Positions 686-11,605 of a stretch of DNA of 11,605 bases are shown here, in pieces. Source of the stretch: Burkholderiales bacterium (GTDB lineage Bacteria > Pseudomonadota > Gammaproteobacteria > Burkholderiales > Casimicrobiaceae); assembly GCA_031277445.1 (NCBI GenBank), contig JAITMH010000038.1, forward strand, positions 1-11,605. Direction: 5' to 3'. The number at the start of each line of letters is the position of its first letter. The first letter of the stretch is position 1. The notes under the pieces are model-generated. The model saw only the letters and a program-made list of their open reading frames with translations, searched no databases and was not told the DNA's origin. A program made the translations under genes and the position numbers.

Positions 686-1912
686 TCAGAGTTGCGACTT
701 CTCTGATTCCTGACCTCTCATCCCTGCCCCGCACATTTGCGCAATGCCTTCGGCCAGACCGACCTTGGGCGACCAGCCGAGAAGATCACAAGAGATTGCA
801 GGATCAATCTGAAAATTGCCCGCCAATTTCTCAAAACGCGCCCTCTGCCCAAGCAGGAAACACGCTGCTCTCAAAAACCTGGGCGGTATCGAAAAAAGCC
901 GCGCAGGTTTTCTCAACTCGTGGGCGATCAAACGAATCAAATCCGGCGTCGCCGCATCTTCCCGATCAGACGCCAGCAAAATTCGCCCGCCCACATCCGG
1001 GTGACAAGCGGCGGCAAGAAAAAAATCCACGCAATTGGGAATATTGATAAAACTTCTGCGATTGTCGATCCCCGCCAACGGCAAAGGCACGCCACTTGCC
1101 GCCAGCCGTATGAGCGTCGCCATGTTCCCCTTGACGCCCGCGCCATAGACGAGCGGCAAGCGAACGACAACCGGTTCCAAGGCAGCGCAGTCGGATAACA
1201 AAAATTCTTCCGCTGCCCGTTTGGAGTGCGCATAAACGCTGTCGGGATGCGGCGCGACAGGCGAATCTTCACGGAAGGCTTCGCCTGCCGCCGAAGCCGT
1301 GCCATAAACAGCCACGGAACTGGCAAAAACAAAGCGACGCACCTGCGCCTTCAGCGCCGCTTCCGCCAGAGCGCGGGTCATCTCCAGATTGTCCCGAAGG
1401 TAAACCGAACGCGCAGACGGCAAAGAACTGTCTCCACGATGCGCACGTCCGGCAAGATGAAAAACCACCTCTACGTCCTGGCAAGCCTCCCGCCAGGCTG
1501 CGGGATCAACCGCGCTCCGCGTTACCTGAATGTTTTCCAGCTTTTCATCGTCGGCATTCTTTTCAAGTTTTGAAGCACTAGAGCGGCTTTGATTTAAGTG
1601 GGCACATTCTTGTGAGGATGCGCCGCGCTTTGCCCCCTTTTCAAAGGGGGTGTCCGTCGAAGACGGACGGGGGTTTGTCTCGGCTCCCCTCTCCCCTTGT
1701 GGGAGAGGGGCAGGGGGAGAGGGGCAAAACGGTGACCGTTCCCCCTCTCCCGCCCCTTCGGGGCACCCTCTCCCACGAGGGGAGAGGGTAAAAGGTGCAT
1801 GCGTTTGAACCGAAAACGCTCTAACTGCCCTGACCTCATGACCGGCGCCGAGAAGATAACGGACAAGATGAGCGCCGATAAAGCCGCCCGCTCCGGTAAC
1901 GAGACACTTCAC
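686..1912 (-). CDS. NAD-dependent sugar-nucleotide epimerase/reductase (extended SDR) carrying an 81-residue in-frame insertion
   Basis: This is an extended short-chain dehydrogenase of the UDP-glucose 4-epimerase superfamily. The C-terminal half (RRSFINI, then a stretch ending in a GW motif) resembles the WbpV/WbpK-type enzymes of O-antigen sugar synthesis. Visible motifs are the Rossmann GAGGFIG at residues 7-13, HLAG at 152-155, SSVAVYG at 198-204, and the catalytic YxxxK pair Y227 and K231. The start is GTG at 1912-1910, preceded by AAAAAGGAAA at good spacing; an overlapping ATG is out of frame. Residues 31-111 are encoded by a palindromic TA-flanked element (1579-1823), so the ancestral protein would be about 327 residues, normal for the family. 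The insertion lies just after beta-strand 2, near the cofactor pocket, so activity is uncertain. The last dozen residues overlap a short repeat also found downstream of dps. The exact sugar substrate cannot be told from sequence. Confidence 0.85.
   Translation of the reverse strand: MKCLVTGAGGFIGAHLVRYLLGAGHEVRAVRAFSVQTHAPFTLSPRGRGCPEGAGEGERSPFCPSPPAPLPQGERGAETNPRPSSTDTPFEKGAKRGASSQECAHLNQSRSSASKLEKNADDEKLENIQVTRSAVDPAAWREACQDVEVVFHLAGRAHRGDSSLPSARSVYLRDNLEMTRALAEAALKAQVRRFVFASSVAVYGTASAAGEAFREDSPVAPHPDSVYAHSKRAAEEFLLSDCAALEPVVVRLPLVYGAGVKGNMATLIRLAASGVPLPLAGIDNRRSFINIPNCVDFFLAAACHPDVGGRILLASDREDAATPDLIRLIAHELRKPARLFSIPPRFLRAACFLLGQRARFEKLAGNFQIDPAISCDLLGWSPKVGLAEGIAQMCGAGMRGQESEKSQL
706..726. 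repeat. Short dispersed repeat, copy 1 (GACCTCT type)
   Basis: This copy matches 2541-2561 at 19 of 21 positions. It encodes roughly residues 396-403 of the epimerase, so the C-terminal tail of that protein may be repeat-derived. Confidence 0.5.
1579..1823. mobile_element. MITE-like palindromic element with TA duplication, inserted in frame in the epimerase gene
   Basis: TA dinucleotides at 1579-1580 and 1822-1823 bracket a 241-bp block that starts GAGCG and ends CGCTC. The terminal inverted repeats match at 12 of 17 positions, or 14 of 19 counting the TA. Inside are several perfect hairpins: 1633-1640/1643-1650 (8 bp), 1652-1658/1662-1668 (7 bp), 1686-1695/1701-1710 (10 bp), 1752-1756/1760-1764 (5 bp) and 1766-1774/1780-1788 (9 bp). 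It encodes no transposase. TA target duplication is typical of IS630/Tc1-mariner elements, so a non-autonomous derivative of such an element is the likely identity; this is inference. Removing the element and one TA restores a continuous reading frame across the host gene (V30 joined to S112). Confidence 0.75.
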
Positions 1913-3952: not shown

Positions 3953-4015
3953 GATAGCAAAATATACTTACAGCCCAATCACAACGGGTGAGCTACCGCA
4001 TGTAATCTGCGCTCT

Positions 4016-4104
4016 GTGGCTTCGCGTGAGATGGCAATAATTTTTCGTGGCTTTCGTGTTTTTCGTGGTTAACGGTTTTTTCTTCGCGGCTTCGCGTGAG
4101 ATGG
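4016..4104. repeat. Imperfect direct repeat unit around a CGTGG-rich spacer
   Basis: A 19-bp unit occurs at 4016-4034 and 4086-4104 (18 of 19 identical, G[T/C]GGCTTCGCGTGAGATGG). Between the copies is a stretch with TTTCGTG-type units in loose tandem (about 4043-4070). This resembles widespread intergenic repeats of proteobacteria. Its core CTTCGCGTGAG also occurs in the inverted repeat at 10446-10597, so at least two intergenic regions of this window share the family. It sits upstream of trmJ and downstream of the EF-G-like gene terminator. Confidence 0.7.
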
Positions 4105-4116
4105 TTTTCTGGGCTG

Positions 4117-4153
4117 ACAAAACAAAACACTGGATGGGGACAAACCCACCCAG
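4117..4153 (-). terminator. Rho-independent terminator of the EF-G-like gene
   Basis: On the minus strand a 9-bp stem (4153-4145 with 4138-4130, one G:U pair) closes a 6-base loop and is followed by TGTTTTGTTTTGT. It starts 26 bp after the stop codon of the EF-G-like gene. The U tract is interrupted by G, so its strength is uncertain. Confidence 0.6.
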
Positions 4154-4178
4154 CGTTATGTCAGGTCGTTCGTAATTG

Positions 4179-6233
4179 TCAATCCTCTTCCTGCTTGCGG
4201 TGTTTCTGATATTCTTCCGCCAGCTTTTGTTGCAGTTGAAACGGCGCCGGTTCATAGTGCGAAAGCGCCATCGTCCAGCCGCCATGTCCGGAAGTCATCG
4301 CTTTGATTCTGGCCGCGTAACCTTCCAGTTCGGACAGCGGCGCGATGCCTTCGATCAGCAGCATTCCTGCGCGTAGCGGTTGTGTGCCAGTCACTTGCCC
4401 GCGCCGTCCCGACAAGTCGCCGGCAATGTCGCCCATGTTGTCCGCCGGACAACTGATTTCCAGCCGCACCATCGGTTCCAGCACGGTCGGTTGCGCTTTC
4501 GTAATCGCGTCGAGGAACGCTTTGCGTCCCGCTGTCACGAAGGCGATTTCTTTGGAGTCCACCGCATGATGCTTGCCGTCGTAAACGATCACGCGCACGT
4601 CCTGCAACGGGAAACCCGCTACCGGCCCGGCTGCCAGCACTTGTTCGACGCCTTTTTGCACCGCCGGAATGAACTGGGTCGGAATCGTCCCGCCCTTCAC
4701 TTCGTCAACAAACTCGAACCCTGCGCCGCGTGGCAATGCTTCGATACGCAGCATCACTTCGCCGAATTGTCCTGCGCCGCCGCTTTGTTTCTTGTGCCGA
4801 TGATGGCCTTCGGATTTGCCTGCCACCGTCTCACGGAACGGCACACGCGGCGGTCGCGTTTCGACTTCCAGTTTGAACACGGTACTCATCCGCTCCAGCA
4901 CCGAGCGCAAGTGCAAATCGCCAAGTCCCCACAAAACGGTTTCGTTAAGCGTTGCATCGTGTTCGAGCTTCAATGTCGGGTCTTCGGCGATCATCTTGTG
5001 TATCACTTCCGACAAGCGTTGTTCGTCGCCCCGCTTGGACGGCGCAATCGCCACGCCGTGCATCGGCGCCGGAAACTCCAGTGGCTTCATGTGGATGTGA
5101 TCTTCGTCGTGCGAATCGTGCAATACGCAATCGAACACAATCTCCTCAACTTTCGATACCGCCGCAATATCGCCCGCAACCACCTGATCAACTTCAATAA
5201 ACTTGCTTCCCTGCATCAAGTACAGATGCCCCACCTTGAACGGTTTGCGACCGTCGCCGACAAAAAGCTGCGTATCGCGCTTGATGGTTCCCTGATGCAC
5301 ACGGAACACGCCGACTTTTCCGACAAATGGGTCGATCTGAACCTTGAACACATGTGCCAGCGCATGCTGCGCCGGGTCTTGCGTCGGCATGAATTTTTCG
5401 GCGCTCTCGCCTTCGCCACGGAAGAAAGGCGGCGGATTGCCCTCGGTCGGATTGGGCAGCAGCTTGACCATGATGTCGAGCAATTCCTGAATGCCAACAC
5501 CGTTCTTCGCCGAGGTAAAACACACCGGAATCAAATGGCCTTCGCGCAAAGCACGCTCAAACGGCTCATGCAACTGCTCGGCGTCTATGTCCTCGCCCTG
5601 CTCCAGATATTTCTCCATCAGCGCTTCGTCAACTTCGACCACCTGATCAATCAACGCCTGATGCGCTTCCTCCACCGACGAAAAATCCGATTCGCCGGAC
5701 GGATTGAAAAAGCAGTCAACCACCTTCGTCCCGTTTGCCGACGGCAAATTGATCGGCAAACATTCGCTGCCGAAAGCCTCGCGCACAGCCGCCAGCACCG
5801 CAGGCAAATCAACATTCTCCGCGTCAATCTTGTTGATCACGATCAGTCGGCAAAGTTTGCGCTTCTCCGTCCAATCCATCATTCGGGAAGTGATCATTTC
5901 GATGCCGGACTGCGCGTTAATCACCACCGCCGCAGTTTCGATCGCATCGAGCGCACCGATGGCCTGCCCGATAAAATCGGGGTATCCGGGAGTGTCCACC
6001 AGATGCACGCGGGTGTTGGCCGCTTCCAAGTGCAGCAAAGACGTCCGCAACGAGAGCTGAAAATTCTTTTCCAACGGATCAAAATCGGAAACCGTCGTCC
6101 CCCTTTCGATGCTGCCCGCTGCCTGTATCGCGCCTGTTTTGAGGAGCAGCGCCTCCGCCAGCGTCGTTTTTCCCGCATTGCCATGACCCACCAGGGCGAC
6201 TGTACGGATGTTTTCAGTAATGTATTGCGTCAT
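4179..6233 (-). CDS. EF-G-like translational GTPase (EF-G2 family)
   Basis: This is a paralogue of elongation factor G, 684 residues against about 700 for EF-G, with all five domains. GTPase motifs are G1 GHGNAGKTT (16-24), a switch I stretch ERGTTVSDFDP (43-53), G3 DTPGYPDF (80-87), G4 NKID (134-137) and G5 SAK (241-243). The catalytic His of the usual DTPGH is Tyr84, a feature of the EF-G2 family (such as the Thermus EF-G-2) rather than of canonical FusA. Domain IV carries GGAGQFGEV (485-493) and keeps His556 at the tip loop (HHAVDS), which corresponds to the translocation-loop His of EF-G. The ATG at 6233 has GGGAG five bases upstream. The gene stands outside any str operon (no rpsL, rpsG or tuf nearby), as expected for this family. 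The cellular role is not established; ribosome binding is likely from the domain layout. Confidence 0.9.
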   Translation of the reverse strand: MTQYITENIRTVALVGHGNAGKTTLAEALLLKTGAIQAAGSIERGTTVSDFDPLEKNFQLSLRTSLLHLEAANTRVHLVDTPGYPDFIGQAIGALDAIETAAVVINAQSGIEMITSRMMDWTEKRKLCRLIVINKIDAENVDLPAVLAAVREAFGSECLPINLPSANGTKVVDCFFNPSGESDFSSVEEAHQALIDQVVEVDEALMEKYLEQGEDIDAEQLHEPFERALREGHLIPVCFTSAKNGVGIQELLDIMVKLLPNPTEGNPPPFFRGEGESAEKFMPTQDPAQHALAHVFKVQIDPFVGKVGVFRVHQGTIKRDTQLFVGDGRKPFKVGHLYLMQGSKFIEVDQVVAGDIAAVSKVEEIVFDCVLHDSHDEDHIHMKPLEFPAPMHGVAIAPSKRGDEQRLSEVIHKMIAEDPTLKLEHDATLNETVLWGLGDLHLRSVLERMSTVFKLEVETRPPRVPFRETVAGKSEGHHRHKKQSGGAGQFGEVMLRIEALPRGAGFEFVDEVKGGTIPTQFIPAVQKGVEQVLAAGPVAGFPLQDVRVIVYDGKHHAVDSKEIAFVTAGRKAFLDAITKAQPTVLEPMVRLEISCPADNMGDIAGDLSGRRGQVTGTQPLRAGMLLIEGIAPLSELEGYAARIKAMTSGHGGWTMALSHYEPAPFQLQQKLAEEYQKHRKQEED

Positions 6234-10300: not shown

Positions 10301-10386
10301 ATAATCCCGCCCACGCAAAGCAGCACGAAAAGCATGATGGGCGGGATCGGATTGCGAATCGACCACGCCGAGACGTTGATATTCAT
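7336..10386 (-). CDS. RND efflux permease, HAE1/AcrB family
   Basis: This inner-membrane proton-driven exporter works as a trimer with a periplasmic adaptor and an outer-membrane channel to expel amphiphilic compounds. The 1016-residue length is typical. The N-terminus (IRNPIPPIMLF) and first helix lie at residues 10-30, the two large periplasmic loops at about 35-335 and 545-840, and the helix bundles at about 337-490 and 843-1005. The proton relay is intact: D401 and D402 in VGVLVDDAIVEVEN, K914 in GLATKNS, R945 and T952 in RARPIVMT. The ATG at 10386 has only a weak ribosome site. It is downstream of its adaptor gene by 246 bp, an unusually wide gap filled by an inverted-repeat element. No outer-membrane factor gene follows, so either it lies off the right edge or a separate TolC-like protein is shared. 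The substrate cannot be deduced. Confidence 0.95.
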   Translation of the reverse strand: MNINVSAWSIRNPIPPIMLFVLLCVGGIIGFQRMKIQSFPDLDMPMVTVVAALPGAAPGQLENDVARRIEDSAATIQGLRHTYSTIQDGVVTILLEFQLEKPLQEAVDDVRSAVARVRSDLPSDLLDPVVNRVDFASMPILAYAVRSQRWDDEALSWFIDNELSKRLLAVKGVGAVTRVGGVTREMRVTLDPLRLQALGVTVTEISRQIRQMQIEMAGGRAELGGGEQPIRTLANVASAEELARMEIPLWDGRRVRLADVATVQDTVAETRSLALLDGMPAVGFEVTRSRGEGEVETGAGIRAELQKILAAHPDLEIVEAFNFADFAQEAFQVSMRMLYEGAFLAVFVVFLFLRNFRATIVAATALPLSAISAFLGMYLFGYTLNVVTLIALSLVVGVLVDDAIVEVENIVRHLRMGKTPRQAALDATAEIGLPVVATTATLVVVFLPIAFMDGVAGLFFKQFGWTAVIAVSMSLVVARMITPILAASMFQPSMRDHSEPRWVQWYTKKAEWCLNHRVLTIVCAIAFFIASMMLAVLLPQDFMSADDNSQTQIHLELPPGATLEQTRHIVGEVHDRLAQLDHITRIYSTIGGGSAGGDAFASSGGDVRKASLTLQLSQRGERPRKQVIEHQIRAALETLPGARFDVGWGDGSDRYSFLLTGDDPDALRTAALAIERDLRALPGLGNIKSGASLIRPEIAVRPDFARAADLGVTSFAIADTLRIATLGDYDTALAKLNLSQRQVPILVKLDDKARSDLAMIGRLTLPGTHGPVMLGEIASLEMFAGPAQITRHNRSRNIRFDIELGGTPMGGVSKQVRLLPSVLDLPPGLNVMEIAEAEFMSELFVSFLIAILAGILCVYTVLVLLFRHFLHPITLLAALPLSLGGAFVGLLLTGSSLSMSSLLGLVLLMGLATKNSILLIEYAITAQRNRGLERLDALLDACRKRARPIVMTSIAMSAGMLPLALGLGNADTTFRAPMAISVIGGLFTSTILSLLIVPVVFTYVDDFSRWLGRLRT

Positions 10387-10445
10387 ACTTGACCAGCGCC
10401 CATTGCTCGGGCTTTTTTGAAAAATGAGACTATGTGGCTGAATAT

Positions 10446-10597
10446 CTCACGCGAAGGCGCGAAGACGCGAAGATATATCAAGGGAGCCGCCGCATGGGTG
10501 AATATTTTTATCTCTGATAACGCACTGCTTGTCGGCGAAGAAGTGTTTGTACTCAGGCTGGAAGTCCCTCCTTCGCGTCTTCGCGCCTTCGCGTGAG
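10446..10597. repeat. Perfect 27-bp inverted repeat element between adaptor and pump genes
   Basis: The arms 10446-10472 and 10571-10597 are exact reverse complements over 27 bp, separated by 98 bp. Each arm is itself repetitive (GCGAAG units) and ends in the CTTCGCGTGAG core also found at 4020-4030 and 4090-4100. A small 7-of-8 bp hairpin (10523-10530/10538-10545) lies in the middle. The whole intergenic region is further flanked by a 12-bp inverted repeat (10417-10428/10632-10643) that overlaps the adaptor stop codon. No transposase is present. In RNA this would form a long stem that could protect the adaptor message or reduce pump translation. Confidence 0.85.
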
Positions 10598-10632
10598 CGT
10601 TTTTTAGATTTAAAAAAGTCATTTTTCGATGC

Positions 10633-11605
10633 TCATTTTTCAACAACCCGCACCCGGTCACCGTCGTTGAGAAAACCCGCGCCTGCCAACACAATTCTCG
10701 AATCCGGCGCAAGACCGTCGAGAATTTCCACGCGATCTCCGATACGCCGCCCCGTCATCACCTTCACCTGACGAACCGAGTCATCCGGTTCCAACTGAAA
10801 CACGTAGCTGAACGCCTCGCGCATCGTCACCGATTGCGACGGAACCGTCAGCGCAGGTTGCAGACCCAAATGAAACTCGCCGCGTGCGAACATTCCTGGT
10901 CGTATCGCCGCATCCGGCGGAAGATCGACGTAAGCAAACCCCGTGCGTGTGCGCACATCAAGCGTTGGCGCGACCATTCGGACAGAACCTTCAGCGAAGC
11001 GTTCATCCGCAAGCGTCAGTTGCACTGAAACACCGGGAGTGATGCGCTCCAGTTCGACATCCATCAATTCCGCCCGCCATTCCAGACGTCCCTTCCGGAT
11101 CAGTCGGAAAAGCTCCCCGCCAGGACCGAACACCGCGCCCACCGTCGCGGAGCGTGCCGAAATCACGCCGCCATCGGGCGCCAGCACACGGGTGCGAACA
11201 AGACGCAATTCCTGCGCCGCAAGCGCTGCCTGCGCCAACTCAACCTGCGCACGAGCAGATTGTTCGGCAGACAGATATTGAACGATATTTTGATCGCTCA
11301 TTGCCCCGCTGCCGCGCAAAGCTCTTGCGCGTTCGGCGTCATCACGAGCCGTCTCCATCACACTGTGCGCCTGCGCAAGCGCCGCCTTCGCCTGCGCAAC
11401 ATCAATTTTGACCGGCTCATCGTCGAACACCGCAAGCACCTGCCCCGCCTTCACCGTGTCGCCCACATCCGCAAACACCTCGGCCAAGCGCAAAGCCTGC
11501 ACATCGGAACCAATCACGGCTTCCTGCCATGCCTCAACAGAACCATTGGCCAGAATGCGAACCGGCCAATCTTCCGTCTCAGGTTGCGCCACCGTCACCG
11601 TCAGC
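10633..11605 (-). CDS. RND efflux periplasmic adaptor (membrane fusion protein), N-terminus outside window
   Basis: Adaptors bridge the RND pump and the outer-membrane channel in the periplasm. About 323 residues are visible, ending at the TGA at 10635-10633. The GTG at 11598 is probably an internal Val: the frame stays open to the window edge and the signal peptide or lipobox expected at the N-terminus is not yet reached. Visible parts in order: the first half of the lipoyl domain (VFADVGDTVKAGQVLAVFDD), an alpha-helical hairpin rich in Ala, Gln and Glu with SAEQSARAQVELAQAALAAQ, the second lipoyl half (RVLAPDGGVISARSATVGAVFGPG), a beta-barrel (LEWRAELMDVELERI to MFARGEF), and a membrane-proximal domain ending LAGAGFLNDGDRVRVVE. 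The helical hairpin is short. It is upstream of the pump gene on the same strand and surely forms one efflux system with it. Confidence 0.92.
   Translation of the reverse strand, partial: LTVTVAQPETEDWPVRILANGSVEAWQEAVIGSDVQALRLAEVFADVGDTVKAGQVLAVFDDEPVKIDVAQAKAALAQAHSVMETARDDAERARALRGSGAMSDQNIVQYLSAEQSARAQVELAQAALAAQELRLVRTRVLAPDGGVISARSATVGAVFGPGGELFRLIRKGRLEWRAELMDVELERITPGVSVQLTLADERFAEGSVRMVAPTLDVRTRTGFAYVDLPPDAAIRPGMFARGEFHLGLQPALTVPSQSVTMREAFSYVFQLEPDDSVRQVKVMTGRRIGDRVEILDGLAPDSRIVLAGAGFLNDGDRVRVVEK

Follow-up and report, generated by a model that had tools for sequence, protein, structure and literature searches.

A dispersed palindromic repeat found in frame within an epimerase gene and other housekeeping genes of a betaproteobacterial genus

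An insertion in an epimerase gene of a Burkholderiales bacterium was found to be one copy of a palindromic repeat that is dispersed through its genome and its genus. A sequence-only reading of the window (the whole 11,605-nucleotide stretch of DNA that was analysed) had covered this single locus. The broader result is that the repeat also stands in frame in other housekeeping genes, a status that we presume from the roles of these genes in model bacteria. Comparison of the copies and their host genes makes it likely that this is a non-autonomous MITE-like repeat of one genus, whose in-frame copies are translated as tolerated loops in enzymes that remain functional.

The inserted block and its empty site in relatives

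The host protein matched PF01370 above the cut-off (E 3e-36) in two stretches, the larger of them C-terminal to the insert, and its predicted structure matched UDP-sugar epimerases in a fold comparison and has the ordinary fold of that class. The Rossmann glycine motif and YxxxK are hallmarks of extended-SDR epimerases, and they were found here as GAGGFIG at residues 7-13 and as Y227/K231. The catalytic pair had been described as untouched, which agrees with a 25-row alignment (window protein included) in which Y227 is almost invariant and K231 invariant. All the NCBIfam models among the matches listed were below their cut-offs, so that the assignment stays at the level of an extended-SDR epimerase. 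The insertion comprises 81 codons in frame, and its excision gives a protein of 327 residues (408 - 81), as the sequence-only reading had calculated.

The block carries TAGAGCG at one end and CGCTCTA at the other, and its terminal inverted repeats are imperfect, the 19-nt arms being 74% complementary, while the arms of the core (1687-1709 and 1766-1788) are 96% complementary. Its predicted RNA fold reached -139.9 kcal/mol, with z = -9.2 against dinucleotide shuffles; a structured-RNA family was considered and set aside, there being no Rfam match at gathering score within the window. The first description of a single TA-flanked element was right about the insertion and its palindromic, imperfect ends, whereas the simple one-piece structure did not stand, because a 51-bp palindrome is nested inside the window copy and rules out a single simple MITE. 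Typical copies (L006, L007 and others) are without this module, which is common to L002 and L013. On sequence comparison the block is thus a composite of a base repeat of ~192 bp and the nested palindrome; the insertion measures 243 bp, or 192 bp minus the module, both divisible by three, and full copies without the module are mostly about 180-200 bp. Elsewhere in the window, at 2479-2502 between a 164-aa ORF and a Dps-like gene, the palindrome CCCTCTCCCGCTTGCGGGAGAGGG resembles the repeat core alone.

Table 1. Coordinates of the epimerase gene and of the parts of the inserted block in the window
Feature	Position	Strand	Remarks
Extended-SDR NAD-dependent epimerase gene	689..1912	-	408 codons, GTG start at 1912, stop at 686-688; from the ORF listing
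Whole inserted block, both TAs included	1579..1823	-	residues 31-111 of 408, 243 bp net; empty allele in G002, G004 and G007
Terminal inverted repeat with TA, protein N-terminal side	1805..1823		inverted-repeat pair and family consensus
Terminal inverted repeat with TA, protein C-terminal side	1579..1597		inverted-repeat pair and family consensus
Palindromic core	1684..1789	-	encodes a LSPRGRGCPEGAGEGER..PSPPAPLPQGERGA-type peptide; conserved in aligned matches
Nested 51-bp palindrome, 17 codons	about 1633..1683		end points uncertain by one base

The epimerase orthologues of three same-genus genomes (Table 1) read through the insertion point without the block. In named assemblies, 16 epimerase loci spanned residue 1 to 390 or beyond (L051-L054, from G003, G007, G004 and G002 in that order, and 12 additional ones, two of them from one assembly), and 15 of the 16 were too short to hold the 81 residues, so that the check by homologue alignment came out in favour of an insertion. 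The remaining locus, L051 of the sister genome G003, has a shorter in-frame insert at the same junction. In the 25-row alignment, seven other rows had the N-terminus in register, six without insert and the G003 short form; the remaining rows are N-terminally trimmed and uninformative at the insert. The closest matches were records titled Proteobacteria, Betaproteobacteria, Burkholderiales, Azoarcus, Zoogloeaceae, Methylobacillus and Accumulibacter; the codes of the bins suggest that they originate from termite guts. The G003 insert has lost the distal end of the repeat and still has the first junction, the core and an intact frame, and we read its break, set against a base copy, as lying at a CAAA microhomology.

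The empty alleles carry a single TA (GTTAGC-type in G007), which supports the proposed TA duplication at the window site. For the family at large a TA duplication is less clear: TA was found at both ends in only 4 of 20 full-length rows besides the window copy (two of the 20 being duplicates), and the junctions at trpE, glnE, opdA, recJ and aroA showed no clean TA duplication.

Copies of the repeat and their reading frame

A DNA search of the own genome (G000, a metagenome bin of 211 contigs, 73% complete) with the block gave 78 matching pieces, the query itself and reverse palindrome matches included. Together with the matches of a second DNA comparison they merged into 50 copy clusters, 44 of them of at least 80 bp; the further copies that the sequence-only reading had called for are thus present. 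With the 78 pieces and the z score of the RNA fold the observation is beyond chance. Contigs C190, C33, C53 and C121 of this genome end inside the repeat, and the true copy number is therefore probably above the count. The DNA match search of ten same-genus genomes found the repeat in seven (G001, G002, G003, G004, G006, G007 and G010) and did not find it in G005, G008 and G009. Family-wide, at least 36 of 64 genomes matched, no more than 12 candidates being scored in each, and outside the genus the matches listed were core pieces only, of roughly 35-120 bp.

The family consensus (TAGAGCGG...CCGCTCTA, 194 bp), built from 88 aligned matches with a few loci counted twice, carries terminal inverted repeats and contains no transposase gene. 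When compared in ten-column blocks, the core was 75-93% pairwise alike apart from one variable block at 43%, and the terminal blocks were 59-75% alike; the ends of many copies are degenerate. A second nested module, encoding a PPLQGG-type peptide, recurs in L200, L210 and L268 (aroA and recJ), where it occupies much the same place inside the repeat. Two copies, at L005:1501-1697 and L010:1453-1637, apparently close the upstream frame; they are tightly placed, between a PilC/PilB-type pair (T2SSF/T2SSE) and between iscS- and iscU-type genes, respectively.

In G000, 15 of the 50 clusters lie within open frames of recognisable genes, namely those for the epimerase, pgeF, hypF, prmC, recJ, trpE, glnE, mfd, dnaX (51-bp-type module only), nnrD, mpl, a MidA-like methyltransferase, aroA, a second epimerase and priA, the last at a contig end. 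Family or structure alignments resume on both sides of the element in 11 of these 15; in the other four (pgeF, the MidA-like gene, the second epimerase and priA) the family match is one-sided. The hosts in G003, much of which were picked through same-frame peptide matches, are the epimerase, opdA, gcvT, gpmI, folC, a RecB/AddA-like helicase, priA, rsmB, an ABC transporter, recJ, a periplasmic binding protein, a U32 peptidase, tsaB, rlmJ, a second epimerase and an HrpA/HrpB-type helicase; support is one-sided for the binding protein, tsaB, the second epimerase and the HrpA/HrpB-type helicase. Further in-gene cases were found in G001, G004, G006 and G007. Out of 68 candidates, a database search with the insert peptide gave 10 proteins (PgeF and RecJ from G000, the G003-type epimerase, RsmB, TilS corresponding to G010:C47, ferredoxin-NADP reductase, GlmU, NadD and two hypothetical proteins), and a second search, with the OpdA insert, gave four proteins, one being the query's own, and no further named host.

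Alignments to PDB structures break at the element in OpdA of G003 (398|453 against 419|425 of 4ka8), RecJ (275|376 against 209|219 of 8y30), Mpl (250|331 against 279|337 of 3hn7), NnrD (442|492 against 422|427 of 2ax3) and PrmC (242|321 against 157|165 of 1t43), and the PgeF alignment takes in only the region that follows the element. Orthologue searches in ten relatives found the site without insert in 10 of 10 for TrpE, in all nine with both halves for GlnE, in all nine with the gene for OpdA, in 8 of 9 for AroA and in 9 of 10 for RecJ; the exceptions are G007, whose AroA has a shorter related in-frame insert, and G003, whose RecJ has a related in-frame insert of different length.

One of the six frames of the consensus is free of stops and each of the other five has at least one. 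The sequence-only reading had noted that the other two gene-strand frames are stopped at or near the ends of the window copy, and the same is seen in the consensus (TAG at one end, TAA near the other). The stop-free frame is used by 37 of the 40 in-gene copies examined, although these cases were selected by an open frame across the element and "in frame" is thus partly built in; among in-gene copies picked by DNA match alone it was 22 of 24. The three exceptions are one copy in a RecB-like gene and two in G006. The count left out dnaX with its 51-bp module only, a second prmC copy close to the N-terminus, and frames that lacked a family match or had the repeat far upstream of the domain (such as L008, L016, L150, L194 and L208). 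After extension to the model ends, 4 of 12 full-length rows unassigned to genes (5 of 13 if L008 is included) were divisible by three in length, which indicates that length is not conserved for its own sake. In a limited counter-check of 40 further frames (two in-gene), 25 had a Pfam match, with no domain seen to be split out of frame, and 15 had none. The simplest reading is survivorship, with copies of open frame and length divisible by three persisting inside needed genes.

Mode of spread and relation to known palindromic elements

MITEs of the IS630/Tc1 type are short, have no transposase gene, carry terminal inverted repeats and a TA flank and occur in many copies; the present repeat shares these features, the TA flank being clear for the window copy. 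One difference is that profile searches of 11 genomes identified no IS630 partner with matching ends: the DDE_3 profile gave nothing in G000 and one fragment of 32 positions in G006, and the NF033545 profile gave weak partial matches in 6 of the 11 genomes with none above its cut-off. The suggested search for an IS630-type transposase thus returned weak sub-threshold pieces and one short fragment. At L187:326-880 in G010, a frame with a weak match to an IS1-type transposase (PF03400) ends 12 bp from a repeat copy.

The repeat also shares its palindromic make-up and its place inside ORFs with intragenic REP elements bearing GTAG or CGTC tags. A survey describes such elements within genes of several species, O. 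terrae among them; their clusters encode 43-82 residues in Thauera and R. conorii, and many of the targets are DNA synthesis and repair genes (PMC3733652). REPs are units of 20-40 bp with a GTAG or CGTC tag, whereas the present unit has ~192 bp, long terminal repeats and TA flanks. A spread of the REP/BIME type, in which the core multiplies by means of a Y1/RAYT transposase or gene conversion and the outer repeats are passengers rather than the ends of a MITE with a TA target, is in our judgement rather unlikely. The higher likeness of the core blocks than of the terminal blocks argues for it, as do the short core pieces in other genera of the family and the finding that the two epimerase inserts, from G000 and G003, are not mutual nearest relatives; it is opposed by the existence of full copies with TAGAGCG..CGCTCTA-type ends and by the single TA of the empty alleles at the window site. 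These two inserts differ by 14%, with a dS of 0.6 for the gene. A simple vertical history of the shared sites is therefore unclear, and inserts that are less diverged than the silent sites of their gene and yet not mutually closest suggest conversion between copies or re-insertion.

For the MITE-like repeat that we prefer, the closest parallel in mode of action is with the Rickettsia palindromic elements. These are described in a review as dispersed elements of about 150 bp, in frame within many unrelated genes and with a conserved encoded peptide (PMC10969869). The present repeat is likewise palindromic and dispersed, with many in-frame copies in unrelated genes and a conserved encoded peptide, and the likeness to these elements raised by the sequence-only reading is borne out by the one preferred frame; it differs in its ~192 bp, its bacterial class, its GC-rich composition, its TAGAGCG/TA ends and its nested modules. 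The repeat appears to work like the Rickettsia elements by analogy of action, and it is not filed among them by sequence. No earlier report of it was found in the open-access literature searched.

Fate of the interrupted proteins

We read the element, from the sequences compared, as a translated and tolerated selfish repeat that acts like the Rickettsia elements and is not exapted. The window copy would be one of many copies of a non-autonomous palindromic repeat, with a TA target at the window site, that multiplied within one genus of Betaproteobacteria. The base form adds 192 bp (64 codons) and has a single stop-free frame in one orientation, and a copy landing in a gene with the right orientation, frame and a length divisible by three would leave the gene open for the ribosome to read through. 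The product would be a Pro/Gly/Arg-rich, probably disordered loop in an enzyme that keeps its function, and out-of-frame landings in needed genes would be lost. In-gene copies may then outlive speciation, with nesting, deletion and possibly conversion altering them without loss of frame, the loop sequence being tolerated and not selected.

In AlphaFold models, residues 36-118 of the epimerase and the insert 163-226 of AroA had pLDDT below 50, and the non-insert parts of both proteins were mostly at 75-98; the other ten-residue blocks of the epimerase were mostly at 83-98, lower around 151-170 and at the C-terminus. Structure prediction thus set the insert apart from an otherwise well-modelled fold, which it leaves where strand 2 (residues 26-33) ends. 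Between G000 and G003, the dN/dS of the epimerase insert was about 2 (bootstrap 0.84-8.2; 47 shared codons) against 0.17 for the rest of the gene. When whole open frames were compared, upstream stretches included, the values were about 0.9 for the recJ insert (56 codons) with about 0.11 for the rest, and about 0.3 for the aroA insert (35 codons) with about 0.08 for the rest. The insert sequences look mostly unconstrained, with aroA too short to tell, and the host proteins look constrained; the AroA insert, at about 0.3 on 35 codons, may be under some constraint. Exaptation of the peptide, as the sequence-only reading had it, is not supported by the insert values in the epimerase and recJ. Its further suggestion of an inactive protein is unlikely, the rest of the gene being under purifying selection and open in both species despite differing indels.

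The insert could also be removed from the RNA by splicing, or bypassed by the ribosome over a stable hairpin, to give a protein of normal length. The strong predicted fold and the precise sites of the palindrome in conserved genes speak for such a process, which would not require an open frame or a length divisible by three; yet nearly all in-gene copies use that frame (with the selection for open frames applying), internal remodelling in G003, G007 and G000 preserves it and Rfam gave no match at gathering score in the window, and we regard this alternative as very unlikely. We find it hardly credible that the interrupted genes are decaying pseudogenes open by accident. The genome is a fragmented draft and the insertion adjoins the end of strand 2, the cofactor-binding place in the Rossmann-type epimerase fold, but the low dN/dS of the rest of epimerase, recJ and aroA argues against decay, residues conserved among relatives are retained in the aligned insert-bearing epimerase and AroA, and no second copy of aroA, trpE, glnE or recJ was seen in the own genome at its 73% completeness. 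A misjoining of repeats into genes during assembly or binning, as a bin in 211 contigs with several ending inside the element might suggest, has a negligible probability, as the joins are in frame and filled sites are common to separate genomes (epimerase and recJ in G000 and G003, aroA in G000 and G007).

For the tolerated repeat, a more far-reaching view, which we offer tentatively as a possibility, is that coding sequence is the habitat of the element and that filled sites are long-lived disordered loops, repeatedly rewritten in frame across species. If true, the one stop-free frame and the 64-codon base length would enable its spread through housekeeping proteins, and nesting, deletion and conversion would have provided sets of the same enzymes with naturally varied loop insertions. 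Rickettsia is the best-known case of a selfish palindrome invading many proteins in frame, and a betaproteobacterial genus would be a further one. Empty and filled orthologues in sister genomes would allow direct questions on the timing and cost of insertions and on the tolerance of enzymes for loops of 40-80 residues. For annotation, odd Pro/Gly/Arg-rich inserts in genomes of this genus should be suspected to be repeat-encoded.

Two other places in the window were observed. In an ORF at the end of an EF-G-like gene (3968-4285), the peptide ISREAAKKKPLTTKNTKATKN looks repeat-encoded. Between two pump genes (10383-10771), HAKARRREG / LRVFAPSRE-type peptides are encoded on both strands, which suggests another dispersed inverted repeat.
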